Source: a virus. Taken from it: DNA of 23,658 bases. The notes under the pieces are model-generated. The model ran no database searches and was not told the DNA's origin. It was given only the letters and a program-made list of their open reading frames with translations. Location of the stretch: IMG/VR virus record IMGVR_UViG_3300047377_000032, positions 1-23,658 of that record. One strand, 5' to 3'. The position numbers were made by a program, and so were the translations under genes. Shown one piece after another: positions 1,849-21,783 of the stretch (position 1 is the first letter of the stretch; every line of letters begins with the position of its first letter).

Positions 1849-2315
1849 GTTTTAAGTTATCACAACGCAGTCTAGGTAAACTGGACGGTGTTCACCCTAA
1901 ATTACAAGAAGTGGTTAAGTTGGCTATTGGCTACACAAACGTAGACTTTGGTGTAACTTACGGGGTACGTGACCCAGAGGAGCAAGCTCGACTTGTAGCT
2001 TCTGGTCGATCACAAACAATGAAATCAAAACACTTGGTCCAAGAGGACGGGTTTTGTCACGCAGTAGACGTGGTTGCCTATGATGGATCAGACGTGGTTT
2101 GGGAAATAAATGTTTACGATGACATTTGTGATGCTTTTAGAAAAGCAGCAATAGAGGTGGGTATCTCAATAAAGTGGGGTGCCGCGTGGTCCGAAGGTGA
2201 CATTCGTAGTTATGAAGGCACGGCAGAAGAAGCCATGAACGCCTATATTGACTTGCGTAGAAGCCAAGGACGTAGGCCTTTTATAGACGGGCCTCACTTC
2301 GAGATAATCGCATAA
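1845..2315 (+). CDS. Endolysin: M15-type D-Ala-/L-Ala-D-Glu peptidase
   Basis: A 156-residue zinc peptidase predicted to cut peptide cross-links or stems of host peptidoglycan at lysis. The M15/VanY-like zinc ligands are visible as His63 (SKHL), Asp75 (HAVD) and His151 (GPHFE). Asp148, three residues before the last His, fits the catalytic base. Compared with the compact 'SxHxxGxAxD' of T5-type enzymes, there are about five extra residues between His63 and Asp75. A longer insert (about 118-145, with 'GTAEEAMNAYIDLRRSQGRRP') precedes the final His. The start is ATG 1845, which overlaps the holin stop. A longer open frame reaching back to 1659 runs inside the holin gene and is not used. No signal peptide is seen, so export should depend on the holin. 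Confidence 0.87.
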   Translation: MSFKLSQRSLGKLDGVHPKLQEVVKLAIGYTNVDFGVTYGVRDPEEQARLVASGRSQTMKSKHLVQEDGFCHAVDVVAYDGSDVVWEINVYDDICDAFRKAAIEVGISIKWGAAWSEGDIRSYEGTAEEAMNAYIDLRRSQGRRPFIDGPHFEIIA

Positions 2316-2330
2316 AGTAACAGTTTGTCC

Positions 2331-2385
2331 TAGCACATCCTATACATACTGTGCTACGATAATATCAGACATTGTTTGATATTAT
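2331..2385 (+). promoter_or_regulatory. Two tandem hairpins in the leader of the head module
   Basis: The first hairpin pairs TAGCACA (2331-2337) with TGTGCTA (2350-2356) around a 12-base loop. The second pairs ATAATATCAGAC (2359-2370) with GTTTGATATTAT (2374-2385) around the loop ATT, twelve pairs with one G-T wobble. Its 3' arm ends two bases before the Shine-Dalgarno-like GAGGGG (2388-2393) of the next gene. No T-tract follows, so it does not look like an intrinsic terminator. It could be an RNA processing site, a translational control element or a DNA operator. I see no convincing -35/-10 pair here. Confidence 0.6.
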
Positions 2386-2396
2386 GCGAGGGGTAA

Positions 2397-2594
2397 ATGG
2401 AAGACATTTATTTGGCCGAGGCGGTTTTTAGAATCTTGAGAGAAAGACGCCAAGGTATAGTAGACTTAATGATATATGGTAATGTTAAGTCTATGGAGCA
2501 ATATCGTGAGCTTATGGGCAATCTGGAATGTCTAAATCACGTGGAACAGGAACTCAAGAGCCTGCTAGATAAACAGGAGCGATCTAATGACTAA
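2397..2594 (+). CDS. Small helical protein of unknown function
   Basis: A 65-residue, largely helical, acidic/basic-mixed protein (LAEAVFRILRERRQGIVDLMIYG..., then a heptad-like C-terminal helix ending in SLLDKQERSND). It has no membrane segment and no catalytic motif that I can recognise. GAGGGG stands just three bases before its ATG, a rather tight ribosome-site spacing, and a strong hairpin abuts that site. Its 3' end overlaps the co-chaperonin gene by eight bases, so the two are probably translationally coupled. Small proteins of this kind commonly precede head genes in environmental podoviruses. A role in capsid assembly or regulation is only inference. Confidence 0.65.
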   Translation: MEDIYLAEAVFRILRERRQGIVDLMIYGNVKSMEQYRELMGNLECLNHVEQELKSLLDKQERSND

Positions 2595-3102
2595 ATCTAA
2601 AATAGATTTGTCTGCCGCACCCAATGCTGCTTTTCAAATAGAAAGCGAATCGGGTCCGTCAGAACCAATCAAACCAGCGCCAGAAAAGAAGGGCACGACC
2701 CCTAATTTAGCTGACGCATATACTGAAAAGCCTCGTCTCAATCCTGAGATGATTGGTAAAACACTTCTGGATAGAATGCCGAGCCCTACCGGGTGGCGCA
2801 TCTTAATTCTTCCGTATCAAGGCAAAGGCAAAACCGCAGGCGGTATTTTCTTGCCAACTGATACTGTAGAGAAAAACCAAGTATCAACGCAAGTTGGTTA
2901 CGTCTTAAAAGTAGGTCCTTTGGCTTACAAAGATAAAGACAAGTTTCCTACGGGTGCGTGGTGCGAAGAAAAGCAATGGGTAATGTTTGCCCGTTACGCT
3001 GGTTCTAGGTTTCAAATAGACGGTGGGGAGGTTCGTATTCTTAACGATGACGAAATCTTATCTACCATTCTTGATCCTGAAGATATTCACCAATTAACGT
3101 AA
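2587..3102 (+). CDS. Phage co-chaperonin, GroES/Cpn10-like
   Basis: A 171-residue protein whose residues about 68-165 follow the GroES fold in order. It starts with a first strand (GWRILILPYQ). Next is a mobile loop, GKGKTAGGIFLPTD, at about 79-92, matching the E. coli 'TKSAGGIVL' loop whose hydrophobic tripeptide binds GroEL. Then come 'VGYVLKVGP' (like GroES 'GEVLAVG'), a core strand (VMFARYAG) and a C-terminal strand/helix, 'EVRILNDDEILSTIL', paralleling GroES 'EVLIMSESDILAIV'. The first ~60 residues are a Pro/Ala/Lys-rich extension absent from bacterial GroES (about 97 residues). It lies directly before scaffold and capsid genes, suggesting it caps host GroEL to fold capsid protein, like T4 gp31. 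That role is inferred; family membership is strong. Confidence 0.85.
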   Translation: MTKSKIDLSAAPNAAFQIESESGPSEPIKPAPEKKGTTPNLADAYTEKPRLNPEMIGKTLLDRMPSPTGWRILILPYQGKGKTAGGIFLPTDTVEKNQVSTQVGYVLKVGPLAYKDKDKFPTGAWCEEKQWVMFARYAGSRFQIDGGEVRILNDDEILSTILDPEDIHQLT

Positions 3103-3108
3103 GGAGAG
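3102..3108 (+). promoter_or_regulatory. Strong ribosome-binding site of the scaffold gene
   Basis: AGGAGAG stands six bases before ATG 3115 and overlaps the co-chaperonin stop codon. It fixes the scaffold start and fits high translation of an assembly protein. Confidence 0.7.
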
Positions 3109-3114
3109 ATAATT

Positions 3115-3981
3115 ATGGCTGATGCCGAAAAAGAACAAGTCGAACTAGACTTGGGGGATTCACAAGAAACTGAAGTAGAAGTTTCTGAAGACCTTTCAAA
3201 CGATAACGGGCGCTCGTCGAGTGATGACGATCAGTTCCAAAAAGCTGAAACCTCTACACAAAAGAGGATTGATAGGCTTACTAAAAAGATGCGAGAAGCC
3301 GAGAGACGTGAGCAAGAAGCTATACGTTACGCTCAAGGTGTACAGAACGAATCGCAACAAATTAAACAACGGATGCAAACTTTGGACACTAATTACGTGT
3401 CTGAATATTCCAATCGTGTGTCTACGCAAATGCAGCAAGCCGAATCGGCTTTAGCGAGAGCGATAGAGATTGGTGATAGTCAAGCAACCGTAGAAGCACA
3501 ACGAGCTTTGACTGGTTTGGCCATTCAAGCTGATCGTGCAGCGCAAGCAAAAGCACAATCTGCGAGGGCTCAACAACAAGCTCAAGCCGCAGCACAGCAG
3601 CAGGTTCGTCAACCTATGCCTGCTCAACAGCCTAAAAGACCTGACCCTAAAGCAGAGCAATGGGCCTTAAAAAATAGCTGGTTCGGCTCTGACGAAGCAA
3701 TGACTTATGCTGCCTTTGGTATCCACAAAAAACTGGTGGAAGAAGAAGGATTTGACCCCCAGAGCGATGACTACTATACTGAGTTAGACAACCGTATTAG
3801 TTCTAAGTTTAATACGGGTGCTACGGCTTCTAACAGACGACCCGCTCAGACGGTTGTAGGAGCCTCAAGAAATTCATCTGGGCGCAGTGGGAAAAAGGTT
3901 AGACTCACCCCTAGCCAAGTCGCGATAGCGAAGAAACTGGGTGTGCCGCTTGAAGAATATGCGAAATACGTGAAGGAGTAA
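3115..3981 (+). CDS. Capsid assembly scaffolding protein
   Basis: A 288-residue protein with scaffold architecture. The N-terminus is very acidic (1-40), followed by charged, Gln-rich coiled-coil helix at about 45-165 (TQKRIDRLTKKMREAERREQ onward). Next comes an Ala/Gln/Pro linker (about 155-178) and a conserved-looking block at about 182-230 (NSWFGSDEAMTYAAFGIHKK). The basic C-terminal helical end (KKVRLTPSQVAIAKKLGVPL, about 260-279) is where scaffolds such as P22's touch the coat protein. It sits between the co-chaperonin and the capsid genes, as expected. Scaffolds line the inside of the procapsid and leave or are degraded at DNA packaging. I see no protease domain. Identification rests on architecture and position. 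Confidence 0.8.
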   Translation: MADAEKEQVELDLGDSQETEVEVSEDLSNDNGRSSSDDDQFQKAETSTQKRIDRLTKKMREAERREQEAIRYAQGVQNESQQIKQRMQTLDTNYVSEYSNRVSTQMQQAESALARAIEIGDSQATVEAQRALTGLAIQADRAAQAKAQSARAQQQAQAAAQQQVRQPMPAQQPKRPDPKAEQWALKNSWFGSDEAMTYAAFGIHKKLVEEEGFDPQSDDYYTELDNRISSKFNTGATASNRRPAQTVVGASRNSSGRSGKKVRLTPSQVAIAKKLGVPLEEYAKYVKE

Positions 3982-3986
3982 AAGAG

Positions 3987-4472
3987 ATGACTGACCAAAA
4001 TAATGAAATGGGTACTACCATCAAACGTACTGCTCGCGCAAACGAAACTCGGGAGAAGAAGGCGCTTCGTAAGCCTTGGGCTCCACCGTCAATGTTAGAT
4101 GCACCACCTGCCCCTGATGGCTTTAAGCATCGTTGGATTCGCGCCGAAACGCGAGGATTTGATGATACAAAGAACATCAGTGCGAAAATGCGTGAAGGTT
4201 GGGAATTGGTCCGTAAGGACGAGTACCCTGACTTTGAATCGCCCGTTGTCGAATCAGGTAAATATCAAGGTGTCTTTGGAGTAGGCGGACTGCTTCTTGC
4301 CAGAATACCGTTAGAAACTGTAGCCGAGAGGACTGATTACTTTAATAAACGTAGTCAGGACCAAATGGAAGCGGTAGATCACGATATGATGCGCGAGAAT
4401 GCACACTCAACTATGAAGATCAGCAATGCTGATCGTCAATCTCGTGTAACCTTCGGTGGTCCAAAAAGATAA
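3987..4472 (+). CDS. Conserved head-region protein of unknown function
   Basis: A 161-residue protein starting five bases after the scaffold stop. The N-terminus is basic and Pro-rich (TARANETREKKALRKPWAPP), followed by a compact middle (DGFKHRWIRAETRGFDDTKN, then 'MREGWELVRKDEYPDF') and a short hydrophobic strand 'GVFGVGGLLLARIPLE'. The C-terminal half is charged and helical. There are no Cys residues and no membrane segment. Its place between scaffold and capsid genes suggests a minor head or assembly protein, and related proteins appear at this position in marine podovirus genomes as I remember them. No biochemical role can be given from sequence. Confidence 0.7.
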   Translation: MTDQNNEMGTTIKRTARANETREKKALRKPWAPPSMLDAPPAPDGFKHRWIRAETRGFDDTKNISAKMREGWELVRKDEYPDFESPVVESGKYQGVFGVGGLLLARIPLETVAERTDYFNKRSQDQMEAVDHDMMRENAHSTMKISNADRQSRVTFGGPKR

Positions 4473-4501
4473 TGGACTGCCCTTATTAGGAGAAACTAAA
4501 A

Positions 4502-5152
4502 ATGGCAAATCAAAATACTGCCTATGGTCTTCGTCCTATCGGGCTTACTGGCTCTGCGGCTAATTCTACTGGGGTAACTCAGTACGAAATCGCATCCAAT
4601 AACACTAACGCTATTTTTCAATATGCTATCTGCGTCCCTCTGGCCGCAGGAACTATTGACCAAGCAGGTGCTACCAATGGTGGTACTACGCAAGCGTTAG
4701 GTGTCCTGATGGGGGTGGAGTACGTCGATTCGGTTTCAAAGAAACCGGTTTTTATTAACTACTGGCCCGGATCGGGTGCAGTAAGCGTTGACACAAATCA
4801 TCCTGTGAAAGCGTTTGTTGCAGACAATCCAAACCAACTGTTCCAAGTAGCGTCTGACGCTTCTTTGACAGACAAAGCAACTGCTCAAGCCGCCGTCTTC
4901 GCGAATGCGTCTTTGGGTACTTCTGCAAGAACGGGATCTACCGACAACGGTAATTCCACATCCGCCTTGGGTGTTTCAACAATCAATACTACTGCGACGC
5001 TTCCACTTCGTATAGTTGGTATTATGGATGACGCAGGTAACAGTGATTACACTGCTGCCGGTATTCCTTTAATTGTGAGACTAAACGCTCATTTCAATTC
5101 ACCAAGTAGCCGTTTTGATTCGCAGACTACTGCGTCTACAACGGGCATTTAA
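4502..5152 (+). CDS. Probable capsid decoration / minor head protein
   Basis: A 216-residue, Ala/Thr/Asn-rich, beta-strand-like protein (MANQNTAYGLRPIGLTGSAA... 'YEIASNNTNAIFQYAICVPL'). Such proteins, with an N-terminal 'N(T/A)xxGxRP' and a '(N/G)xIFQ' block, commonly accompany capsid genes in environmental tailed phages. Decoration or head-stabilising function is assumed from that. TTAGGAGAAAC precedes ATG 4502, and the stop is followed by the capsid gene's ribosome site. There is no Cys-rich, enzymatic or membrane feature. It could instead be a second coat subunit, but the next gene is the clear HK97-type major capsid protein. Confidence 0.6.
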   Translation: MANQNTAYGLRPIGLTGSAANSTGVTQYEIASNNTNAIFQYAICVPLAAGTIDQAGATNGGTTQALGVLMGVEYVDSVSKKPVFINYWPGSGAVSVDTNHPVKAFVADNPNQLFQVASDASLTDKATAQAAVFANASLGTSARTGSTDNGNSTSALGVSTINTTATLPLRIVGIMDDAGNSDYTAAGIPLIVRLNAHFNSPSSRFDSQTTASTTGI

Positions 5153-5159
5153 GGAGGGC
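5151..5159 (+). promoter_or_regulatory. Near-consensus ribosome-binding site of the capsid gene
   Basis: AAGGAGGGC is the closest match to the anti-16S consensus noticed in the window and stands six bases before ATG 5166. This fits the major capsid protein being the most translated product. It overlaps the stop codon of the upstream gene. Confidence 0.75.
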
Positions 5160-5165
5160 TAAACA

Positions 5166-6074
5166 ATGGCTATTTCTAGAGCCCAACTAGCGAAAGAGCT
5201 AGAACCCGGTCTAAATGCACTATTTGGATTGGAATATAACCGTTACGAGAACGAGCATGGCGAAATCTTTGAGGAAGAGTCTTCGGACAGAGCCTTTGAA
5301 GAGGAAGTAATGCTTGGTGGTTTCTCAACTGCACCAGTTAAAGGTGAAGGCACTGCCATCAACTTTGACGATGCACAAGAGACATATACCGCTCGTTACA
5401 CTCACGAAACCATCGCTTTAGCGTTCTCAATCACTGAGGAAGCTATTGAAGATAACTTGTATGACCGACTAGCGTCGCGTTACACCAAGGCATTGGCTCG
5501 TTCAATGGCTCAAACCAAGCAGATCAAAGCTGCCGCTATCCTGAACAATGCGTTCACGGCGGGTGCTTCTGCAATTGGTGATGGTGCAGCACTATGTTCT
5601 ACGGCTCACCCAAGTTTATCTGGTAACCAGAGCAACCTTCTCGCCACAGCGGCTGACCTCAACGAAACTTCGCTTGAGCAAATGCTGATTGAGATTGCTG
5701 GTATGACCGATGAGCGTGGTTTGAAAATCGCGGTACGTGGTATGAAGCTTGTAATTCCAAAAGAGCTTCAGTTCATCGCAGAAAGAGTTCTGAACTCTAA
5801 CTTGCGTTCGGGCACTGCTGACAACGACAACAATGCAATGAAGAACATGGGTATGATTCCTGACGGAGCCGTGGTTAACCACTTCCTGACTGACTCAGAC
5901 GCATACTTCATCAAAACTGACGCGCCTAACGGCTTCAAGTTCTTCAACCGTTCGCCTATTAAAACGGCAATGGAAGGTGACTTCGATACCGGTAATATGC
6001 GTTTTAAAGCGCGTGAGCGTTACAGTTTTGGCGTATCTGATTGGCGTTCTGTTTTCGGTACACCCGGAGCGTAA
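5166..6074 (+). CDS. Major capsid protein, HK97 fold (Mu gpT-like)
   Basis: A 302-residue coat protein that builds the icosahedral shell. It has the features of the HK97-fold branch resembling Mu gpT. The N-terminal helix is 'ISRAQLAKELEPGLNALFGL'. An E-loop-like acidic region follows ('ENEHGEIFEEESSDRAFEEE'), then 'YTARYTHETIALAFSITEEA' and a long spine-helix region at about 95-125. The 'GDGAALCSTAHP' motif lies at about 139-150 and a P-domain strand in 'RGMKLVIPKELQFIAERVL'. The end, 'RYSFGVSDWRSVFGTPGA', is typical. No N-terminal protease-processed delta domain is evident; a separate scaffold is encoded upstream. An intrinsic terminator lies about 55 bases after the stop. Confidence is high from sequence pattern plus context. 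Confidence 0.87.
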   Translation: MAISRAQLAKELEPGLNALFGLEYNRYENEHGEIFEEESSDRAFEEEVMLGGFSTAPVKGEGTAINFDDAQETYTARYTHETIALAFSITEEAIEDNLYDRLASRYTKALARSMAQTKQIKAAAILNNAFTAGASAIGDGAALCSTAHPSLSGNQSNLLATAADLNETSLEQMLIEIAGMTDERGLKIAVRGMKLVIPKELQFIAERVLNSNLRSGTADNDNNAMKNMGMIPDGAVVNHFLTDSDAYFIKTDAPNGFKFFNRSPIKTAMEGDFDTGNMRFKARERYSFGVSDWRSVFGTPGA

Positions 6075-6128
6075 ACTGTGCTATAAAGGAGTTGTCGATT
6101 TCATATTGACTTCTCCCTGTAGACTCGG

Positions 6129-6160
6129 AAGGGGTAACGCAAGTTGCCCCTTTCTTTTTG
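6129..6160 (+). terminator. Intrinsic terminator after the capsid gene
   Basis: AAGGGGTAAC (6129-6138) pairs with GTTGCCCCTT (6143-6152), ten pairs with one wobble. The loop GCAA is a stable GNRA tetraloop. A T-rich run, TCTTTTTG, follows. It closes the head transcription unit and should at least reduce read-through into the small-protein cassette. Confidence 0.88.
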
Positions 6161-6177
6161 TGTAGTCTTATTGTATC

Positions 6178-6219
6178 CTGACAGTATCCCTGACAGCCGC
6201 ATGGTGCGTCTGACATAAC
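6178..6219 (+). promoter_or_regulatory. Possible promoter / CTGACA repeats upstream of the second structural unit
   Basis: CTGACA occurs three times, at 6178, 6190 and 6210, the first two within TATCCTGACAG / TATCCCTGACAG direct repeats. CTGACA at 6190-6195 and CATAAC at 6214-6219, 18 bases apart, resemble a weak sigma-70 promoter. The start site would then fall almost on the ribosome site AGGAGA of the gene at 6238. Location right after a terminator supports a promoter in this gap. The exact element is uncertain. Confidence 0.3.
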
Positions 6220-6237
6220 CCACGACAGGAGATACAT

Positions 6238-6711
6238 ATGGGTACTACAACTTTTTCCGGACCAATTAAAGCCGGAACCATCAAAGAAACCACGGGTACG
6301 TCCCTTGGTTCAAACATTAAAAACACTGGTCAAGTCGTAATGGCGCAATCGTTTACTACCGGCTCTTTAGCAGGTGGTGCTTCTGCGGCTAACGTTACTA
6401 ACGTCGTTATTCCAGCAAATTCACAAATCATTGATTGCGTAATTGATTGTCCTACAGCAATGGGCAACGCTACTGCGGTATTGAGTGTTGGTGATACTGT
6501 GGGCGGTAACGCTACGTTTGTTAACGCTTTTTCAATCACTGTAGCCTCTGGTGCTGGACGTAAATATCCAACTACCGAAGCTGGTGGTGCATTGGCTTGG
6601 GCAGATATTGGAACCGCGGACAAGAGAATCACTTGGACAACTGCTGGTGCAACAAACGCTGGCGAAATTCGAGTAACGGTTCTGTATCAGCAAAACGCTA
6701 ACCTCGTTTAA
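6238..6711 (+). CDS. Small beta-rich virion-associated protein, probably head decoration
   Basis: A 157-residue Gly/Ala/Thr-rich protein beginning 'MGTTTFSGPIKAGTIKETTG', with alternating strand patterns throughout (NVVIPANSQIIDCVIDCPTA; GEIRVTVLYQQNANL). It is the first gene after the capsid terminator and has a good ribosome site (AGGAGATACAT). Proteins with this 'TTFSGP(I/V)(K/R)AG' opening are frequent next to coat genes of environmental podoviruses. A surface decoration or fibre-like role is inferred, not shown. There are two Cys residues in 'DCVIDC' and no membrane segment. Confidence 0.6.
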   Translation: MGTTTFSGPIKAGTIKETTGTSLGSNIKNTGQVVMAQSFTTGSLAGGASAANVTNVVIPANSQIIDCVIDCPTAMGNATAVLSVGDTVGGNATFVNAFSITVASGAGRKYPTTEAGGALAWADIGTADKRITWTTAGATNAGEIRVTVLYQQNANLV

Positions 6712-7284: not shown

Positions 7285-7569
7285 ATGGCTACTACAAAGA
7301 ACGTCACTCGAACTCCATCAGGGAGAATTAAGTACCGGGGAGAAACCTTTGCAGGTTACAACAAACCAAAAAGAACGCCCGGTGCAAAGAAAAAGAGTGC
7401 CGTTTTGGCTAAAAAGGGCTCTGAGATTAAACTTGTTAGATTCGGGGACCCTAAGATGTCTATTAAAAAAGACCAACCTAAAAACCGTAAAAGTTTCCGC
7501 GCACGACATTCCTGTGACACGGCCAAAGATAAATTTAGTGCCAGATACTGGTCTTGTAAAGCGTGGTGA
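7285..7569 (+). CDS. Small Lys/Arg-rich conserved phage protein with two Cys
   Basis: A 94-residue, strongly basic protein: 'KNVTRTPSGRIKYRGETFAG' at the start, a Lys-rich middle (PKRTPGAKKKSAVLAKKG), then 'LVRFGDPKM' and a C-terminal block 'SFRARHSCDTAKDKF' followed by 'SARYWSCKAW'. The two cysteines about 13 residues apart, with a His just before the first, could bind a metal. Close relatives with the same 'RFGD...RARH.CD...YW.C' layout are common in marine phages as I remember them. No function is established to my knowledge. Nucleic-acid binding is a guess from charge. It starts eight bases after paralog B. Confidence 0.7.
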   Translation: MATTKNVTRTPSGRIKYRGETFAGYNKPKRTPGAKKKSAVLAKKGSEIKLVRFGDPKMSIKKDQPKNRKSFRARHSCDTAKDKFSARYWSCKAW

Positions 7570-7576
7570 TGAGTAC

Positions 7577-7759
7577 ATGGAAGTGAAAGAAGTATTAGCT
7601 AAACTCGAAAAACATGAGGCTGAGTGCAATCTCAGGTATCAGAGAATAGAAGAGCGTTTAGCTGAACATAAGAGCGCCTTATCGGCATTGGACGTAAAGC
7701 TTTGGGCACTGGCGGTCTTGATTATAATCGCACCTTTTGTGCAGAAATTTTTAGGGTGA
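7577..7759 (+). CDS. Small coiled-coil plus single-TM protein
   Basis: A 60-residue protein. Residues 1-38 form a charged helix with heptad character (VLAKLEKHEAECNLRYQRIE). Residues about 42-57 are a transmembrane segment (LWALAVLIIIAPFVQ), followed by a short end, 'KFLG'. The open frame extends upstream to 7349 but that part overlaps the previous gene out of frame. ATG 7577, seven bases after that gene's stop and preceded by GGTGATGAG, is the sensible start. The helix-then-membrane design resembles XhlA-like lysis accessory proteins. It could equally be a minor virion membrane-contact protein. The true holin candidate is at 1477. Confidence 0.6.
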   Translation: MEVKEVLAKLEKHEAECNLRYQRIEERLAEHKSALSALDVKLWALAVLIIIAPFVQKFLG

Positions 7760-7763
7760 CCGC

Positions 7764-7949
7764 ATGGCGTATTCTAAAAAATCTAAAAAAGCTTCCTCTA
7801 AAAGCAAAGGAAGCAAAATATGTCCCAAAGGAAAAGCTTGGGCCGAGCGTACTTTCGACACTTATCCTAGTGCGTATGCCAACATGGCCGCTTCTAAATA
7901 CTGCAAAGACCCTAACTATGCGAAAAAAAGTAAGGGGAAAAAGAAATAA
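7764..7949 (+). CDS. Tiny Lys/Ser-rich protein with 'YPSAYAN' motif and two Cys
   Basis: A 61-residue protein with Lys/Ser-rich ends (AYSKKSKKASSKSKGSK ... KKSKGKKK) around a conserved-looking core, 'CPKGKAWAERTFDTYPSAYA' followed by 'NMAASKYCKDPNY'. The 'PSAYAN.(A/W)AS.YC' motif recurs in small proteins of many marine phages and some large DNA viruses. Its role is unknown to me. The two Cys may pair or bind a metal. Its stop overlaps the next start (TAATG), coupling translation of two basic proteins. It sits four bases after the membrane microprotein. Confidence 0.68.
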   Translation: MAYSKKSKKASSKSKGSKICPKGKAWAERTFDTYPSAYANMAASKYCKDPNYAKKSKGKKK

Positions 7950-8329
7950 TGGGCAAGTTGAAGGATTGGGTCGATGAAGATTGGGTCAGAATTGACAGCC
8001 AAGGTAATATCGCAGGTAAATGCGGTACTTCAAAGAATAAAAAAAATCCTGACAGGTGCTTACCTCGATCTAAAGCTAATAGTCTTAGCAAGTCTGAAAG
8101 GGCTTCGACGGCTCGTAAGAAAAAGCGCGAAGGCTCTAAAGGAAAGCAAGTGGTTTCAAACACCAAAGCCGCCAAAGTGGTAAAGAAAGGCGACGGTGGA
8201 GTAATTTCTACCAAACCTAAACGACCATTTAATGGAAAATCACAAGCTGGTACAGCCATAGCTAGAGGTTGCGGCAAAGTCATGAACAACCGACGTAAAC
8301 GAACAAAGGGATCGGTGACACAATCATGA
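7949..8329 (+). CDS. Basic Cys-containing phage protein ('KDWVDEDWVRI' family)
   Basis: A 126-residue protein, very rich in Lys/Arg/Ser. The N-terminal block 'LKDWVDEDWVRIDSQGNIAG' is followed by 'KCGTS...NPDRCLPRSKANSLSKSER'. A basic stretch (STARKKKREGSKGKQ) comes next, and the end reads 'AGTAIARGCGKVMNNRRKRT'. The N-terminal block resembles a small family seen in cyanophages, other marine phages and giant viruses. The C-terminal 'ARGCG.VMNNRRK.TKG' is also found as a separate phage microprotein, so this may be a fusion of two microprotein types. The stop overlaps the next gene's start (ATGA). Function is unknown; DNA binding is inferred from charge only. Confidence 0.68.
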   Translation: MGKLKDWVDEDWVRIDSQGNIAGKCGTSKNKKNPDRCLPRSKANSLSKSERASTARKKKREGSKGKQVVSNTKAAKVVKKGDGGVISTKPKRPFNGKSQAGTAIARGCGKVMNNRRKRTKGSVTQS

Positions 8330-10997: not shown

Positions 10998-11450
10998 ATG
11001 GCTTTCAGCGGAAACTTCATGTGTACATCGTTCAAGAAAGAGCTATTGTACGGTGTCCACGACTTTGATCTCTCTTCGGGAGATGCTTTTAAAATTGCTC
11101 TTTACACCAACAGCGCCTCTTTCGATGCTACGACTACTGCGTACACTACCAGTAACGAAGTAAGTGGAACAGGTTACACTGCTGGTGGCGGAGCTTTGAC
11201 TAACGTCGATCCTACTTCATCCGGAACTACGGCACTAACGGACTTTCAAGACGAAACGTTCTCAAATGCAACAATTACGGCACGTGGGGCATTAATATAT
11301 AATACTACTCCCAATACTACGTCACTTTCGGTAACCAACCCGAGTGTTGTAGTTTTGGATTTCGGCGCGGACAAAACATCCACCGCAGGTGATTTTACGA
11401 TTGTTTTTCCAACTGCTGATGCAAGTAACGCGATTATACGGATAGCGTAA
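10998..11450 (+). CDS. Conserved small structural protein, beta-rich
   Basis: A 150-residue protein: 'MAFSGNFMCTSFKKELLYGV', then 'GDAFKIALYTNSASFDATTT', 'EVSGTGYTAGGGAL' and strands to the end (VVLDFGADKTSTAGDFTIVF). The 'F(K/L)xALYTxxAxL.(A/S)xTxxYTxxxE(V/I)xGxGYxAGG' pattern is one of the commonest motifs in phage structural regions and marks small beta-sandwich virion proteins, but the exact location in the particle is not known to me. It overlaps the next start as TAATG. There is a single Cys at residue 9. Confidence 0.7.
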   Translation: MAFSGNFMCTSFKKELLYGVHDFDLSSGDAFKIALYTNSASFDATTTAYTTSNEVSGTGYTAGGGALTNVDPTSSGTTALTDFQDETFSNATITARGALIYNTTPNTTSLSVTNPSVVVLDFGADKTSTAGDFTIVFPTADASNAIIRIA

Positions 11451-12343
11451 TGGCTGACGTAATCGTCCCAATAGGCGGCTGGGGCCGTTCAGGTTGGGGC
11501 GCAGGCCCGTGGTCCCAGAGTGGGCTACCACAAGCTGCGGGTTCTGTAGGTTCAGTAACGGTCGTGGCGGAAGCCAACGTTCCGGTTACAGGACTACAAG
11601 CAACAGGTAGTGTTGGCAGCGTAACAATAAACGCAGCAGCCAACGTGTCTGTAACAGGGGTAGCTGGTACTGGCCAAGTGGGCAGTGTCACTACAACGGC
11701 AGATGCCAATGTTAACGTTACAGGCGTAGCGGGAACAGGGCAAGTCGGTTCGGTCAGCATAACTGCTGGTGCGAACGTACCCGTCACCGGATTGGCCGGA
11801 ACTGGAGCAGTAGGCTCCGTATCGGTCACCGCAGATGCAAACGTAAACGTTACGGGTGTGTCGGGAACAGGGGTCGTAGGCTCCGTAAGCGTCGAAGCTG
11901 GCGCAATTGTACCCGTCACAGGACTTGAGGCCACAGGGTCCGTTGGTTCAGTAACGATTGTTGCAAAAGCCAATGTTTTCCCAACAGGTCTTCAAGCTAC
12001 TGGTCAGGTAGGCGACGCCACTGTAGATGGCGAAGCCAATGTACCGGTAACAGGCTTGTCTGCGACAGGCACCACTGGATCAGTTTCAGTAAGAACGGGT
12101 CAGACAATTAACGTTGGTGGTGTGAGTGGAACAGGTCAAGTCGGAAGTGTCACAGTAGAAAGTGATGCTGTAATAAATGTAATAGGAGTCAGCGCAACAG
12201 GTGGTGTCGGAAACGTACTGGTATACTCTAACATTGTCCCGGATCAAAATCCGGGTTATAGTGAGATAGATGTTAACCAGTCGCCGTCATGGTCGGAGGA
12301 AGAACCAACCCAGAGCGCAAATTGGACGCAAATAGCAGCGTGA
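11450..12343 (+). CDS. Repeat-built virion protein: eleven 22-residue repeats plus Trp repeats
   Basis: A 297-residue protein in three parts. Residues 1-25 hold a Trp/Gly motif (GGWGRSGWGAGPWSQSG). Residues 26-265 are eleven tandem units with the pattern '(L/V)xxTGxVGSVxVxAxANVxVTG'. Each is 22 residues except the first (23) and the last (19, truncated). Residues 266-296 are three 11-residue units (QNPGYSEIDVN, QSPSWSEEEPT, QSANWTQIAA). The alternating Val/Gly/Thr repeats suggest a stacked beta structure such as a fibre shaft. It lies just before the tail fibre gene, so a fibre or virion-surface role is likely but inferred. The TAATG overlap couples it to the previous gene. The same Trp/Gly block occurs in the tail hub protein. 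Confidence 0.75.
   Translation: MADVIVPIGGWGRSGWGAGPWSQSGLPQAAGSVGSVTVVAEANVPVTGLQATGSVGSVTINAAANVSVTGVAGTGQVGSVTTTADANVNVTGVAGTGQVGSVSITAGANVPVTGLAGTGAVGSVSVTADANVNVTGVSGTGVVGSVSVEAGAIVPVTGLEATGSVGSVTIVAKANVFPTGLQATGQVGDATVDGEANVPVTGLSATGTTGSVSVRTGQTINVGGVSGTGQVGSVTVESDAVINVIGVSATGGVGNVLVYSNIVPDQNPGYSEIDVNQSPSWSEEEPTQSANWTQIAA
11525..12244 (+). repeat. Eleven tandem ~66-base coding repeats
   Basis: Each unit encodes about 22 residues (first 23, last 19). The strongest positions are the TG, (V)GSV and VTG elements. DNA varies at third positions between units (for example ACAGGACTACAAGC versus ACAGGGGTAGCTGG), so selection acts on the protein. All units stay in one frame. Confidence 0.88.
12245..12340 (+). 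repeat. Three 11-residue C-terminal repeats (Q-x-x-x-W/Y-S/T)
   Basis: Units start at 12245, 12278 and 12311 and encode QNPGYSEIDVN, QSPSWSEEEPT and QSANWTQIAA. An aromatic residue sits at position 5 of each. They form a separate C-terminal module after the 22-residue repeats end. Confidence 0.75.
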
Positions 12344-12354
12344 GGATAAAATAG

Positions 12355-15300
12355 ATGCCAAGTACCTATACAGTTAACCTCGGTATTGAAAAACCGGCCA
12401 CTGGTGAGCAGTCGGGTACATGGGGTGATACTACAAACGTCAATTTCGATATTCTGGATCAAGCGATCAATGGCGCAGAGCGAGTTACGCTCACTAGCGC
12501 GGGTTCATCCGGATCACCAAATGCTTTAAATATCACTAACGGTGCGACCTCTGATGGGCGCAACAAGTGGATTGAATTTTACAGTTCAGGCGATCTTGGG
12601 GGTTCTGTATACGTTCAGTTAGTCCCAAATGACGCTGAAAAAATAGTTTTTGTAAGAAATAGTTTGGCAAGTAGCCGGTCTATTTTACTTTTCCAAGGCA
12701 CATATAACTCTGGTCGGGACTTAGAAATACCGGCGGGCGTAGACATGGTAGTTAAGTTCGATGGTGGCGGCGCAAGTGCAGCTACTGTTACTGACGTTTT
12801 TACCAAGTTACGTGCTACTGAAATTACCACACCTACTTTAACCGCTACTACTGCCGATATTAACGGCGGTACTATTGATAACTCTGTTATTGGTGGTTCT
12901 ACAGCGGCAGCAGTAACCGGTACAGCGGTTGTTGCTAATACAAGTTTAAACATTGCAGGTGACGGCGCGACTGTTACCGGCATTAAAGACGAAGACAATA
13001 TGGCGTCTAATAGCGCCACAAAGCTTGCTACTCAGCAATCTATTAAAGCGTATGTTGATTCACAGGTAGGCACGGTCGATACATGGGCCGAGGTTCTAGC
13101 TAATGGAGCTACGTCTGGATCAACCAACCCGGAGGTTACTGCGGGTCAGGCACTTAAAACTAATACTATTAACGAAACGTCTGCGGGCAGCGGTGTCACA
13201 ATTGACAGTGTTTTGCTCAAAGATGACGTAGTTAATGCTACGGATATTGAGACGAGCAGTATTTCTGCAAATGACGGTACGCCATCGGCAACCATTGCTA
13301 ACACTACCGGTAACTTTACGATCACCAATTTTGTATCGAACTCCGTAGATATTGGTGGCGGTGCTATTGATGGCACTGTAATTGGCGGCGCAAGCACGGC
13401 AGCGGGATCGTTTACTACTTTGGATGCTTCAGGTGCTTTTACTGGAACCACGGCTACTTTAACTACCGCTGATAACGCTACGCAGCTAACCCTTGTTTCT
13501 ACAGATGCAGATGCAAGTCATGGACCTGTTCTGGATTTAAAAAGGGATAGTTCTAGTCCAGCAGATAATGACCCTTTAGGATTAGTAAGGTTTCTTGGAG
13601 AAAATGATGCGGATGGAGCGCTCACATACGCAAGAATATACGCAACTATTAGAGACGCTTCTAATGGCACAGAAGATGGAATGCTGTCCTTTAATACCGT
13701 AAGCGGTGGTGCGAATAAATCAAGATTAGAACTTGATACTACAGAGTCTGTATTTAACGAAAGTGGTGCAGACATCGACTTTAGGGTGGAAACATCCAAT
13801 GCTTCCCACGCTTTGTTTTTAGACTCAGCTAATGATCGTATGGGCATTTTTGAAAGTTCTCCTGTCTACACATTTGATGTAGATGCGGAGACACGGTTTC
13901 AAAAACAAATAAATTACGGGGGTTACACTTCTGAATACCCTGCCGATGTAGTGACAGTCACTAGAGGAAGTGCTGCAAGCGATACCGCGTGGGTAAAAAT
14001 AGGAACGCTAGACAATCCCGGTCAAGCTGACATTTTATATAGTTGCGGAACCTCTGCCAGTGAAGAGACTGGAATTATTAGTTTAGTACAGACTTATTCA
14101 GGTTCAAACCTCGGATTGACGGTAAAAAGACAGACTTACAACCGACAAGTTACTAAAGTACGTGTTGTGCAGGTCGGTGCAGGCGGAACCGACTATGAAA
14201 TTTGGGTACAGATTGATAACGGAAGTGACCAGACCAGTGACCCGTATGTCAGAGCAATAGTTAAATTAGCGCAGACACTTTCGATTGCTAATCGTTGGAC
14301 TTACGCTATGTCGGTGGGAACACCGGGAACTGCTGCAACAGAAGTAGACCTTGACGTCTCCGCAGGGGGGTCTGCTTCTAGCGCTAGAAACCAAACCGCC
14401 TATGCTGGTTTTACTAACAACTCTTTGGGCGCAATCTTCAACAATGACGGAGCCGATTCGGATTTTCGGGTGGAATCTGCTAATAACACCCATACGTTAT
14501 TTGTTGATAGTAGTGCTGACAAAGTTATGGTCGGCACATCAGTTGCACCAAACACGTTTAGCGTTTTAGGTAGCTTTTACAACGCTGGTTTTTATCGAAA
14601 CTTTACGGGTGCAGGTACTGCCGCTAATTATGTGGGAATAGGCCGAACAGACTCTGCCGGAAATTTAGTTGACGGCGTTCGAATTACTGGTGGCGGCGAT
14701 GAAAATGCCGAAGCAAGTCATAATGGTTACTTTAACCTTGAGATTAGAAATAGCGGAAACTTTAGAAGCTTGCTGTCGGCTTTTAGTAGCGGAAATGAAC
14801 TTGTCGTAAATGACGGTGGTCTTGACATGGACTTCCGCGTCGAGTCTGACTCTAACGTAAATATGCTTCTTGTTGATGCAGGCAATAACAGGGTAGGCGT
14901 TGGTGTCTCTCCTACAGCTAGGTTTGAAATACAAGATACTAATAATGTTTCTATAAAATTTGGGGATTTAGCATCATACCCTAGTAATGTAGTACCTTGT
15001 TTTATAGGTACAGGAACGTCTGCTTTAGCGGGTGTTAATGGTGATTTAATATTAGTGCCCAGAACAAGTGACCAAGGAAAAATAATATTTGCCACTGGTC
15101 ATAACGGTGCGGCTTCTGAAAATATGCGTGTTTTTGATGGTGGCATTACTATTAACGAGGATGGTGCAGACCGTGACTTCCGCGTTGAATCAAACAACAA
15201 CGCTAATATGCTGTTTGTTGATGGCGGTAATGATAAGATTGGCGTGGGCACAAATGCCCCGACCGAGATGCTTGAAGTTTTTAGTGAAGCCGCAAGTACA

Positions 15301-16149
15301 GCTATTGAAGTAAGTGCAGGTAAAGCCTCCACAACAACGGGCGAATCAAAACTTGTTTTAAGATCACTACACGCAGCATCTGGGACATCTTACTCAAGGT
15401 CTGAAATTGCATCTCTTGCAGTTGCGGGCGGTGATTCGGATTTAATTTTCCGTACAACGACTGATACTAACGGGCCGCAAGATCGGTTAAAACTAGATGC
15501 TGAAGGCAACTTCGACTTTAACCCTAACGAAAACAACAACATCTTTAGAGTAAGAAACGGTAGTTTGAATGATGCGTTGGTTGTTCAAGGCGGCGGTTCG
15601 GGTGTAGGCATTGTAGGAATTGGTACAGATGCGGCTTTGTTTTCTTCGGGTGAGGCCCTTGGTGTTAAGTCAGCATCGACCCTTGCTATTGGGGGTGAAA
15701 ACAACAGCACCAGTGCTGCTACGCTGTATTTAAAAAATCTAGCTTACGACGGCACTTCAACTGAACGAACTTTAGTTTTTTTCCAAGCTAATAGTGGAAA
15801 TCGTGGGTCTATTACAAGTAATGGGTCAGGGGTTACTTATAATACAAGCTCGGACATAAGACTTAAAACAGATATTCAGCCTATTAAAAACGCCGCTGAA
15901 ACGCTTCTGTCCATGAATCCCGTGACCCATAAATGGAAAGCCGATCCAGAAGCAGACACAGTTCACGGCTTTATTGCACAGGAAATGCAAAACATCGTTC
16001 CTGAAGCTGTCTCAGGTGATCCTGATGGGGAAGAAATGATGTCTATGGATTATGGACGTATTACTCCAATAATCGTAGCTGCCCTGCAAGACGCCACAAA
16101 CGAAATTAAAGCTCTTAAAGAAAGAGTAAAAGAACTGGAGGCTTCTTAA
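12355..16149 (+). CDS. Tail fibre/spike protein with C-terminal S74 intramolecular chaperone
   Basis: A 1264-residue receptor-contact protein. The N-terminus (MPSTYTVNLGIEKPATGEQS, then 'GTWGDTTNVNFDILDQAI') is the usual virion-attachment start of environmental phage fibres. The middle is Thr/Ala/Gly-rich and contains four copies of a block 'G(A/L)DxDFRVES...(M/T)LFVD...(D/N)(K/R)xxVG' near residues 466, 694, 817 and 931, with a fifth, weaker copy near 1052. The end is an S74 domain: Ser1166 and Lys1171 in 'SDIRLK' form the Ser/Lys pair for self-cleavage after trimerisation, followed by 'HGFIAQEM' and a final coiled coil. The released chaperone would be about 99 residues. Host range cannot be read from it. 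Confidence 0.87.
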   Translation: MPSTYTVNLGIEKPATGEQSGTWGDTTNVNFDILDQAINGAERVTLTSAGSSGSPNALNITNGATSDGRNKWIEFYSSGDLGGSVYVQLVPNDAEKIVFVRNSLASSRSILLFQGTYNSGRDLEIPAGVDMVVKFDGGGASAATVTDVFTKLRATEITTPTLTATTADINGGTIDNSVIGGSTAAAVTGTAVVANTSLNIAGDGATVTGIKDEDNMASNSATKLATQQSIKAYVDSQVGTVDTWAEVLANGATSGSTNPEVTAGQALKTNTINETSAGSGVTIDSVLLKDDVVNATDIETSSISANDGTPSATIANTTGNFTITNFVSNSVDIGGGAIDGTVIGGASTAAGSFTTLDASGAFTGTTATLTTADNATQLTLVSTDADASHGPVLDLKRDSSSPADNDPLGLVRFLGENDADGALTYARIYATIRDASNGTEDGMLSFNTVSGGANKSRLELDTTESVFNESGADIDFRVETSNASHALFLDSANDRMGIFESSPVYTFDVDAETRFQKQINYGGYTSEYPADVVTVTRGSAASDTAWVKIGTLDNPGQADILYSCGTSASEETGIISLVQTYSGSNLGLTVKRQTYNRQVTKVRVVQVGAGGTDYEIWVQIDNGSDQTSDPYVRAIVKLAQTLSIANRWTYAMSVGTPGTAATEVDLDVSAGGSASSARNQTAYAGFTNNSLGAIFNNDGADSDFRVESANNTHTLFVDSSADKVMVGTSVAPNTFSVLGSFYNAGFYRNFTGAGTAANYVGIGRTDSAGNLVDGVRITGGGDENAEASHNGYFNLEIRNSGNFRSLLSAFSSGNELVVNDGGLDMDFRVESDSNVNMLLVDAGNNRVGVGVSPTARFEIQDTNNVSIKFGDLASYPSNVVPCFIGTGTSALAGVNGDLILVPRTSDQGKIIFATGHNGAASENMRVFDGGITINEDGADRDFRVESNNNANMLFVDGGNDKIGVGTNAPTEMLEVFSEAASTAIEVSAGKASTTTGESKLVLRSLHAASGTSYSRSEIASLAVAGGDSDLIFRTTTDTNGPQDRLKLDAEGNFDFNPNENNNIFRVRNGSLNDALVVQGGGSGVGIVGIGTDAALFSSGEALGVKSASTLAIGGENNSTSAATLYLKNLAYDGTSTERTLVFFQANSGNRGSITSNGSGVTYNTSSDIRLKTDIQPIKNAAETLLSMNPVTHKWKADPEADTVHGFIAQEMQNIVPEAVSGDPDGEEMMSMDYGRITPIIVAALQDATNEIKALKERVKELEAS

Positions 16150-19718: not shown

Positions 19719-19948
19719 GTGATGGAACAATAATTAATATGCCTGACGGCAGTCAGTGGAAACCTTCCACTAGCACAGACATGGTACATTGTGCTAACTG
19801 TACTAATAAGGTCGATACTCCGGAGGAAATACTGTCCTATCCGAGTGGAAATTGCCCTGAATGTGGTTCTTCATGGACTGGAGGAGAGAACCGAAGTACA
19901 ATAATACAGGTAACCATGCCTGAAAGCATTACTGGTGGAGCGGGATAA
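19715..19948 (+). CDS. Small zinc-ribbon protein
   Basis: A 77-residue protein with two Cys-x2-Cys knuckles, Cys26/Cys29 (HCANC) and Cys47/Cys50 (NCPEC), eighteen residues apart between the inner Cys. This is a complete zinc ribbon. The N-terminal 'IINMPDGSQWKP' and C-terminal 'TIIQVTMPESIT' look like strands. There is no helicase or nuclease part. Overlaps on both sides (ATGA with 19422, ATGG after TAA with 19948) tie it to the virion genes. Zinc ribbons of this size may serve in assembly, in nucleic acid contact or as a structural knot. Target unknown. Confidence 0.75.
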   Translation: MSDGTIINMPDGSQWKPSTSTDMVHCANCTNKVDTPEEILSYPSGNCPECGSSWTGGENRSTIIQVTMPESITGGAG

Positions 19949-21783
19949 TGGCAAAAGAAGCATTAATGGTTGAAGAAACCGAAGAATTAGAAGAACTGGA
20001 AGTCCCGACCGGTGGTATTGGCGATTTTGTCATGGAAGATGACGAACTCGAAGAAGTTTACGGAGATGACTCCGAAACAGATGCTAAAGAAGAGTTTGGT
20101 GACAACGGTATAGCACAATTTCCTGCGCTTGCAGAGCGCATGGCTAAGTATGGTCGAAACGAAGACAACATGCTGGCCCACGTTGCAGAGGGTGAATTAG
20201 TCATTCCAGCACAATTCCTCGAAGACGAGGTAATGAAGCAACGTATCTACGATATTCTTACAGAAGCCGGGGTTGAAGACCCTGAAGCTTATGTTGTTGG
20301 CGCAGAAGCTAACGATCTTAACCCTACTACAGGCCTACCTGAGTTCTTTTTGAAGAAGTTATTCAAAGGAATTGGTAAAGCTATTAAGAAAGTGGTTAAG
20401 GCGGTTGTTAAAGTCGTCAAGAAAGTCGCTCCTATTATCCTACCTATTGCATTGGCGTTCACGCCTCTCGGACCAATTTATGGTGCCGCGATGGGTTCAG
20501 GTATTGGAACACTTCTAAACGGTGGAAGCATCAAAGATGCCCTCAAGTCTGCACTTATATCGGGTGCGGTAGGTGGTGTTACTGCCGGATTCACCGGATC
20601 AGGTTCCTTTACTCAAAACATATCTGATGCTGCTTCAGGGTTTGGCGCTCGTGTAAGTCAAACAGTTTCTGGTGCAGGCTCTACCTTTACCGGTGGCGGA
20701 TTTACTGGAGAAGGCAACTTGTTTAGTGATTATGTGCCTACACCGGGTGCAGAAGTTGCTTCCGCCGCGGAATCTGCGACGTCACTCACTACGCAACCAA
20801 TTCAACAAGGCGATACTTTGAGTCAAATTGCGCAAGCAAATAATACTTCTGTTGACGCTTTGATGGCGGCTAACCCGCAAATTACTGATCCAAACATGAT
20901 TATTGCAGGCGAAAGCCTCAATATTCCGCCTGTAAGTGCCGGTGGTACATCACTTTCTGAAAGTGTAGTGAAAAACGTCGGAGAAGATGTAGCCGAAGCA
21001 GCGGCAGGAGAAACCGCAGAGCGTAGTTTCTTAGAGAAAACAGGCGATTACATGTTCCGTGGTGGTCAATCACCCGAGGCTATAGCGAGCGCTAAAGAAA
21101 TTGCTGGGCAAGAATATATTGCGGACATGGCGGCTAAAGGTCTTAATGCGTCTGAAGCGGGTCTTAATGCCGCTAAAGCAGCCGCGGGACCCGGTATGCT
21201 AACTAGGTTTGGTCCTACCGCACTCGCGGGAACAACATTAGCGGCAGGGGCGGGTTTCTTTGATGTTCCAGAGATAGAGCAAGCTAACTTTATAGACTAC
21301 AATCCTGACGGTACACCTACTACAGGTAGAGACCTGATCGACGCTGATCCCGGTAAGTACCTTGTACATAACTTAGGTCAGTTGCAGTTAAATCCAGAAA
21401 CAGGTGAGTACGAGGCTGTTGGTAATCAAACTGCTTTTGAAGAAGAAGACTTAGTAGGTTATGCCCCACCTGAACAAGTAGCGGTGTTGCCCCCACAAAA
21501 CCAACAAAACTACTTAACAGCTAGTACCCCCGGCGGACCATTTGCACGTCCCTACGTGACAGCCGCAGAGGGTGGACCGATCTTCCCGCGTCGCACAGGC
21601 GGCATTGCACCCACTGAAGGTACTCCGGGTGAAGATAGCGTTCGAGCCATGTTAATGCCCGGTGAGTTTGTAATGACTACCGATGCAGTACGTGGTTTAG
21701 GAAACGGAAATCTTAACAACGGAATCCAGAATATGTATTCAGTAATGCGTAATCTTGAGAGCCGTGGGAGGGCTACGGCGTAA
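19948..21783 (+). CDS. Large virion protein with cationic amphipathic segment and LysM domain
   Basis: A 611-residue protein, a candidate internal or ejection protein. Domains in order: an acidic N-terminus (1-55), then 'AERMAKYGRNEDNMLAHVAE' followed by 'GELVIPAQFL', a pattern often seen at the start of such phage proteins. A Lys/Val-rich amphipathic stretch at about 135-160 (FKGIGKAIKKVVKAVVKVVK) runs into a hydrophobic segment (IILPIALAFTPLGPIYGAAM). A LysM domain follows at about 283-328 (IQQGDTLSQIAQANNTSVDA, 'GESLNIPP') for peptidoglycan binding. The C-terminal block 'PGEDSVRAMLMPGEFVMTTD' is common in phage virion proteins. Together these fit crossing or anchoring in the cell envelope during DNA entry. 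No lytic catalytic motif is seen. Confidence 0.7.
   Translation: MAKEALMVEETEELEELEVPTGGIGDFVMEDDELEEVYGDDSETDAKEEFGDNGIAQFPALAERMAKYGRNEDNMLAHVAEGELVIPAQFLEDEVMKQRIYDILTEAGVEDPEAYVVGAEANDLNPTTGLPEFFLKKLFKGIGKAIKKVVKAVVKVVKKVAPIILPIALAFTPLGPIYGAAMGSGIGTLLNGGSIKDALKSALISGAVGGVTAGFTGSGSFTQNISDAASGFGARVSQTVSGAGSTFTGGGFTGEGNLFSDYVPTPGAEVASAAESATSLTTQPIQQGDTLSQIAQANNTSVDALMAANPQITDPNMIIAGESLNIPPVSAGGTSLSESVVKNVGEDVAEAAAGETAERSFLEKTGDYMFRGGQSPEAIASAKEIAGQEYIADMAAKGLNASEAGLNAAKAAAGPGMLTRFGPTALAGTTLAAGAGFFDVPEIEQANFIDYNPDGTPTTGRDLIDADPGKYLVHNLGQLQLNPETGEYEAVGNQTAFEEEDLVGYAPPEQVAVLPPQNQQNYLTASTPGGPFARPYVTAAEGGPIFPRRTGGIAPTEGTPGEDSVRAMLMPGEFVMTTDAVRGLGNGNLNNGIQNMYSVMRNLESRGRATA

Follow-up and report, generated by a model that had tools for sequence, protein, structure and literature searches.

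Why a phage should carry a GroES gene when bacteria possess their own has, to our knowledge, been little studied beyond T4. The question arises here from a virus record in IMG/VR, 23,658 bases long (the window, by which we mean the whole of this stretch), in which three genes separate a groES-like ORF from the gene for the major capsid protein (MCP). Cellular-type groES genes occur in eight of the nine bacterial assemblies that also hold a contig of such a phage, and with a host GroES present the need for a phage GroES is not obvious.

Identity and fold of the GroES-like protein

The gene and its parts are as follows.
2587..3102, plus strand: groES-like co-chaperonin gene, 171 aa (ORF from ATG to TAA, with Pfam Cpn10, PHROG 3188 and fold)
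2587..2700, plus strand: N-terminal tail, residues 1-38 (pN/pS, low pLDDT and variable length)
2701..2781, plus strand: constrained N-terminal segment, residues 39-65 (pN/pS and column conservation; DSSP on the model)
2782..3069, plus strand: Cpn10 domain, residues 66-161 (Pfam match at 67-160; VIA-align Z 8.1 to 4pj1 and 8.0 to 4v4o)
2821..2898, plus strand: mobile-loop region, residues 79-104, with GKTAGGIFLP (alignment to GroES; low pLDDT)
2881..2892, plus strand: four-residue insertion at the C-terminal end of the loop, residues 99-102 (17 versus 13 residues; placed by MAFFT and approximate)

The Pfam Cpn10 model PF00166 matches residues 67-160 (E 5.9e-10, 39.5 bits, the cut-off being 21.1), as it does all 24 of the aligned proteins, and PHROG 3188, labelled 'co-chaperonin GroES', matches the ORF with E 2.2e-16. 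Ten NCBIfam GroES equivalog or subfamily models also match (E 9.9e-11 to 9.3e-4), the best of them with 41.5 bits against a cut-off of 96; scores so far below the cut-offs mark the protein as a divergent GroES and no cellular equivalog. Over residues 66-161 the pN/pS among 44 distinct proteins from close relatives is 0.11, which indicates purifying selection and hence a maintained gene. A chance or misread ORF is ruled out by this selection together with the existence of the relatives. An AGGAG stands at 2575-2579 ahead of the ATG, and the groES starts of relatives are likewise preceded by purine-rich sites. A later start, at the ATG of residue 55 or 64, would leave no N-terminal extension, and is disfavoured because residues 39-65 are constrained in frame and the ribosome site lies before the first ATG.

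An AlphaFold2 model built from 24 window and IMG/VR sequences is of moderate confidence (mean pLDDT 63.8, pTM 0.56), with no residue at 90 or above, 68 residues at 70-90, and values below 50 at residues 1-5 and 10-38 and in the loop at 82-87 and 92-97. In a Foldseek search with this model the best 34 rows were all Cpn10/GroES chains (4pj1 with E 6.7e-06), T4 gp31 (1g31) following as row 35. VIA-align gave Z scores of 8.1 to human Cpn10, 6.9 to gp31 and 5.0 to the top unrelated row; as Z below 8 may reflect a common arrangement, the case for Cpn10 relies jointly on sequence and fold. An earlier note, made from the letters of the DNA alone, had read a retained GroES core in this ORF, and Pfam, PHROG 3188 and Foldseek agree with it; the Cpn10 fold that the note presumed for residues 68-165 holds by Pfam, Foldseek and VIA-align. 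The product of 2587-3102 is a Cpn10/GroES-type co-chaperonin.

The gene block from groES to the coat protein gene

The neighbours of the gene, from the upstream side, are the following.
2397..2594, plus strand: small gene upstream (65 aa), its last 8 nt shared with groES (PHROG 32603; upstream of groES in most loci examined)
3115..3981, plus strand: p288, 288 aa, candidate scaffold by position only (PHROG 28737; counterparts in CRP-901, RW, MW202785 and MinM2)
3987..4472, plus strand: p161, 161 aa block protein (PHROG 36003; synteny)
4502..5152, plus strand: p216, 216 aa block protein (PHROG 37556; synteny)
5166..6074, plus strand: MCP, 302 aa, 33.0 kDa (Phage_capsid_4, E 2.5e-15; PHROG 371)
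6127..6154, plus strand: terminator-like hairpin, about 52 nt past the MCP stop (fixed place after the MCP gene in relatives)

From groES to the MCP gene the gaps are 12, 5, 29 and 13 nt, and p288, p161 and p216 have masses of 18-32 kDa. The earlier note placed groES ahead of scaffold and capsid genes. The capsid gene is confirmed by Phage_capsid_4 and PHROG 371, but the scaffold is not, as p288 has no Pfam or NCBIfam match at E 0.001 and PHROG 28737 carries no functional label. A sequence search up to E 1 returned no solved relative of the window MCP. Past the head genes, at 7285-8329, lies a series of small ORFs very rich in lysine (94, 61 and 126 aa), two of which were scanned with no Pfam match over the cut-off.

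We sampled the neighborhood of this gene in three sets of 80 IMG/VR loci gathered with three different queries. The order groES-p288-p161-p216-MCP, on one strand, is present in all 157 loci whose sequence continues for 3 kb or more past groES (56/56, 41/41 and 60/60), these loci being related and hence fewer than 157 independent events; the remaining 83 end too early for the count. The profiles first used included proteins of CRP-901, RW, MW202785 and MinM2 that had been chosen by position. Circularity of the count is ruled out by profiles rebuilt from the window, DSL-LC04, HTVC023P and HTVC027P only, which left it unchanged (56/56, 41/41, 60/60). The same order is seen in seven named phages (DSL-LC04, HTVC023P, HTVC027P, 023Pt_psg01, CRP-901, RW and MW202785), while MinM2 shows groES and the following two genes before its record ends. 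The rebuilt profiles recognise all five proteins in CRP-901 and RW (RW p161 only with E 7.5e-5) and four of the five in MW202785, whose gene at the p161 position is unmatched by sequence.

A terminator-like hairpin lies within 170 nt after the MCP gene in 57/57, 10/38 and 59/59 regions of the three sets and in five of the seven named phages, against 5/161 mononucleotide-shuffled regions (1/57 for the first set) and 1/161 regions after groES; near-copies inflate these counts, and the second set is mostly negative under the criteria used. The groups differ in their stem sequences, so that the hairpin as such appears to be conserved. Across 1850-6300 neither predicted promoters (4 versus 5.8) nor terminator-like sites (5 versus 4.6) exceed the numbers in shuffles, and only the place after the MCP gene stands out.

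A tree of 51 rows separates the 21 block proteins from all others at a branch with support of 98/97, which 98% of 200 bootstrap trees recover; with the bootstrap unsettled, several long rows and rows drawn partly at random, this is good but rough support for a single tree lineage. The block proteins come out as one lineage of co-chaperonins, firmly tied to a set of capsid genes. The records of block-bearing phages name Pelagibacter, Roseobacter, Caulobacter and gammaproteobacterial hosts. Three phage records with different host names (OQ594354.1, OL906435.1 and PP438419.1) are all 65,014 bases long and give the same 37.1% GroES match; they are possibly one phage deposited thrice, with an uncertain host label.

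The nearest named relatives are HTVC023P (gp36), HTVC027P (gp55), 023Pt_psg01 and DSL-LC04, whose GroES proteins are 49-55% identical to that of the window and share with it the block ahead of the MCP gene, a loop exceeding that of cellular GroES by four residues and an N-terminal extension. The annotated GroES of the Roseobacter phages CRP-901/902 is 35-38% identical; CRP-901 has the block order and the longer loop in common with the window and differs in its short N-terminus. PMC9599517 counts GroES among 13 core genes of HTVC023P-type phages, and a genome-figure legend in PMC10149686 names it for CRP-901-type phages. The GroES identity in this phage group is therefore already published, and the window is a further member. 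It has the groES-to-MCP order of the HTVC023P-type group; the criterion for that group is a PolA at least 45% similar to those of cultured members, and no replication gene was identified in the 23.7 kb of the window.

The recognised genes of the window are those of lysis, head and tail. In a tail fibre of 1264 aa (12355-16149) a Peptidase_S74 domain, 'chaperone of endosialidase', lies close to the end (residues 1166-1219, E 6.8e-16), and a 611 aa protein (19948-21783) contains an internal LysM domain (E 3e-11). The 297 aa ORF at 11450-12343 consists of about eleven diverged repeats (counted by eye) like ATGSVGSVTVxAxANVPVTGL, with no Pfam match and none listed by a DNA-level tandem repeat finder. 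At 47-1474 a Gly/Pro-rich ORF of 475 aa begins with a dockerin-like calcium-loop motif (DGNGDGRITSRDA), for which Dockerin_1 scores only E 0.029, below its cut-off, and no PHROG matches.

The window phage is aquatic. Its GroES also gave 31 matches in genome contigs, from MAG and single-cell assemblies of many phyla (L251-L281, labelled Verrucomicrobiota, Euryarchaeota, Pacearchaeota, SAR86, Pelagibacteraceae and others), the nearest, at 83%, being in a MAG labelled Oceanicoccus. Many of these are likely to be co-binned phage contigs, and those from single cells may be true infections. Since the matches mostly look co-binned, we claim no host.

The mobile loop and the N-terminal extension

The segment GKGKTAGGIFLPTD (residues 79-92) contains GGIFL at residues 85-89, a loop with a hydrophobic GroEL-binding tripeptide; the near-intact mobile loop with IFL that the earlier note had described is confirmed by alignment to GroES. 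IFL is typical of the group: at position 26 of the tripeptide, 142 of the 160 distinct block proteins have F, Y or L, against I or V in 55 of the 67 cellular GroES, and G at E. coli position 24 with I, L or V at 25 occurs in 159/160, the exception being a row cut by the start rule. The position of Tyr71 is Tyr in 160/160 block proteins and aromatic in cellular GroES (Tyr in 52/67). The roof segment, G44-Y71, spans 25-29 residues in 160/160 block proteins and 25 in 60/67 cellular ones, a comparison of length only.

The length of the loop sets the lineage apart. Between the equivalents of E. coli G24 and G38 it has 17 residues in 160/160 distinct block proteins and 13 in 67/67 cellular GroES, as counted by alignment with annotated starts used for L086-L089; the cellular set comprises phmmer matches of at least 30 bits to E. 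coli GroES among L251-L357, in part only the best-scoring loci, up to 30 per search, of the genomes covered. Phage-type proteins in bacterial assemblies have 17 residues in 29 of 30 cases, the other (L279) being a broken fragment that counts 0. In seven phage Cpn10s from outside the block, a subset of 71 phage records matched, the interval is 11-13 residues (7/7). As far as sampled, the four extra residues thus appear to be a mark of the block lineage and not of phage Cpn10s generally. Some other records filed as phage (the Listeria LM series, Salmonella contigs and faecal Bacteriophage sp.; H18-H30) carry a GroES that shares 44-54% identity with the cellular query, and are likely to be host DNA within the phage collection.

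The kept loop bears on the idea that a Cpn10-fold protein was reused as a structural or assembly part and is no longer a co-chaperonin. Its position among head genes and its divergence from cellular GroES would suit such a history, but a structural protein has no reason to keep a GroEL-facing loop, and we regard this reuse as very improbable.

A different reading of the longer loop is a remodelling like that of gp31, in which the lid is lifted and the chamber enlarged for a phage client. In PMC6318259 the gp31 loop is given as 22 residues against 16, with a chamber 8% larger and roof loops absent, and the four added residues in the block proteins speak for an analogous effect; these figures are taken from that source, our MAFFT alignment of gp31 to GroES being unreliable and unused. 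Weighing against it, the mass is 33.0 kDa for the MCP and 18-32 kDa for p288, p161 and p216, and the roof segment is no shorter than that of GroES (25-29 versus mostly 25 residues), whereas gp31 is without roof loops. We consider remodelling of this kind unlikely. The suggestion in the earlier note that the cage is enlarged fares poorly for the coat protein, since an MCP of 33 kDa fits the ordinary cage, unlike T4 gp23, for which PMC6318259 gives about 56 kDa; an enlarged cage is hence weakly motivated, and would be better attached to the four-residue loop insertion than to the extension.

The extension amounts to about 65 residues, the Cpn10 match beginning only at residue 67, so that the roughly 60 residues noted earlier are real but prove to be of two kinds. 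Across the 44 distinct proteins from close relatives, pN/pS comes to 0.64 in residues 1-38, 0.17 in 39-65, 0.11 in 66-161 and 0.17 in the loop region (79-104). Residues 1-38 are a loose tail, variable in length and sequence and, by the model, probably disordered. Residues 39-65, with the pattern ..NLADAY..KPRLNP..IG..LL.RMP, are a constrained segment leading into the Cpn10 domain, and DSSP on the AlphaFold2 model predicts a helix at 53-63 within them. That bacterial GroES has no such extension was correctly stated in the earlier note, single-domain GroES chains in the PDB being 94-114 residues long.

How far the extension matters can be judged from its distribution. DSL-LC04, HTVC027P and 023Pt_psg01 have a DAY or DKY motif followed by P.P.GW or P.P.GY; HTVC023P has the P.P.GY run and lacks the DAY/DKY motif, and the window's clade has an N-terminal sequence of its own. 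By-eye counts give about 24 residues before the Cpn10 domain in CRP-901, about 18 in MinM2 and fewer than 10 in MW202785, phages which share the gene block. Hence the extension was added in part of the lineage and is inessential to what the block does, and the proposal that it selects the substrate or enlarges the cage is weakened accordingly. It could nonetheless act as a tether that holds the MCP or the scaffold at the folding cage: the constraint on residues 39-65, the predicted helix and the motif shared ahead of the proline run in three phages point this way, and HTVC023P without the motif, together with the short N-termini of CRP-901, MinM2 and MW202785, whose block is intact over the stretch in view, points the other. 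On balance we think a tether improbable.

Another alternative is one of dose, with the phage protein an ordinary GroES substitute that raises the supply of lids during bulk coat synthesis, and the extension and the loop length neutral marks. It is helped by the poor constraint on residues 1-38, by the short extension in some block-bearing phages and by the small MCP. It explains less readily why residues 39-65 should be under almost the same constraint as the domain (pN/pS 0.17 versus 0.11) and why the loop is fixed at four extra residues in 160/160 proteins. We hold it to be a real possibility, short of an even chance.

A proposed lid for host GroEL and its known counterparts

Based on these observations we propose, with good though not complete confidence, that the phage GroES caps host GroEL to fold head proteins, chiefly the MCP, in late infection. 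The supporting base consists of the predicted Cpn10 fold, the intact loop, the strong selection and the fixed MCP block; a Cpn10-type protein with a mobile loop in a conserved coat-gene block has head-protein folding via host GroEL as its most likely role. The groES block would be co-transcribed late, lid and coat protein thus coming from one set of genes; Cpn10 subunits would form a ring, which would cap host GroEL via the mobile loop, and the capped GroEL would fold head proteins, most likely the MCP. Ring formation, GroEL binding, the MCP as client and late co-transcription are the parts of this scheme that we infer. No Cpn60 gene was found in the records of 11 relatives (37-56 kb, of uncertain completeness), the same search being positive in 14/14 control genomes, and the partner would therefore be the GroEL of the host.

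As the candidate client is small, the usual explanation by cage size does not apply to this lineage. In our preferred account a dedicated stock of lids is produced in step with the head genes, and residues 39-65 may dock a client. More speculatively, and with considerable doubt, the block proteins may represent a separate capsid-dedicated co-chaperonin lineage, widespread among aquatic phages with very different hosts, having a GroEL loop invariably longer by four residues and, in many members, a constrained N-terminal helix that docks coat or scaffold at the folding cage; if true, this would be a lid with client selectivity, built unlike gp31. What a phage GroES is for becomes testable through two features, the longer loop and residues 39-65. 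Neither the longer loop nor the two-part extension was named among the open-licence papers listed by our searches, and both look undescribed.

Among known systems, cellular GroES/Cpn10 resembles the window protein in fold, loop core, hairpin length and the aromatic residue at the Tyr71 position, and differs in a loop four residues shorter (67/67) and in having no such extension. The Cpn10s of Vibrio D93, Flavobacterium immuto, Vibrio 1.083.O, Motura, BcepSaruman, PBECO4 and DAC16 share the domain, with loops of 11-13 residues. That of PBECO4 adjoins a gene annotated as virion structural protein and that of Vibrio 1.083.O sits among head and tail genes, an annotated MCP being present in the 3-4.5 kb flanks of one of the seven (Vibrio 1.083.O, upstream). 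T4 gp31 is, like the window protein, a phage co-chaperonin of the same fold class (1g31 at rank 35, Z 6.9). It is absent from the PDB sequence matches up to E 10, a weak test as the identity of gp31 to GroES is only 14% according to PMC6318259. The roof segment, kept by length in the block proteins, corresponds to roof loops that gp31 lacks according to the same source. In T4, gene 31 has rIII and 31.1 as its neighbours, and the 22 kb examined contain no gene annotated as capsid. The analogy with gp31 drawn in the earlier note is thus limited to function.
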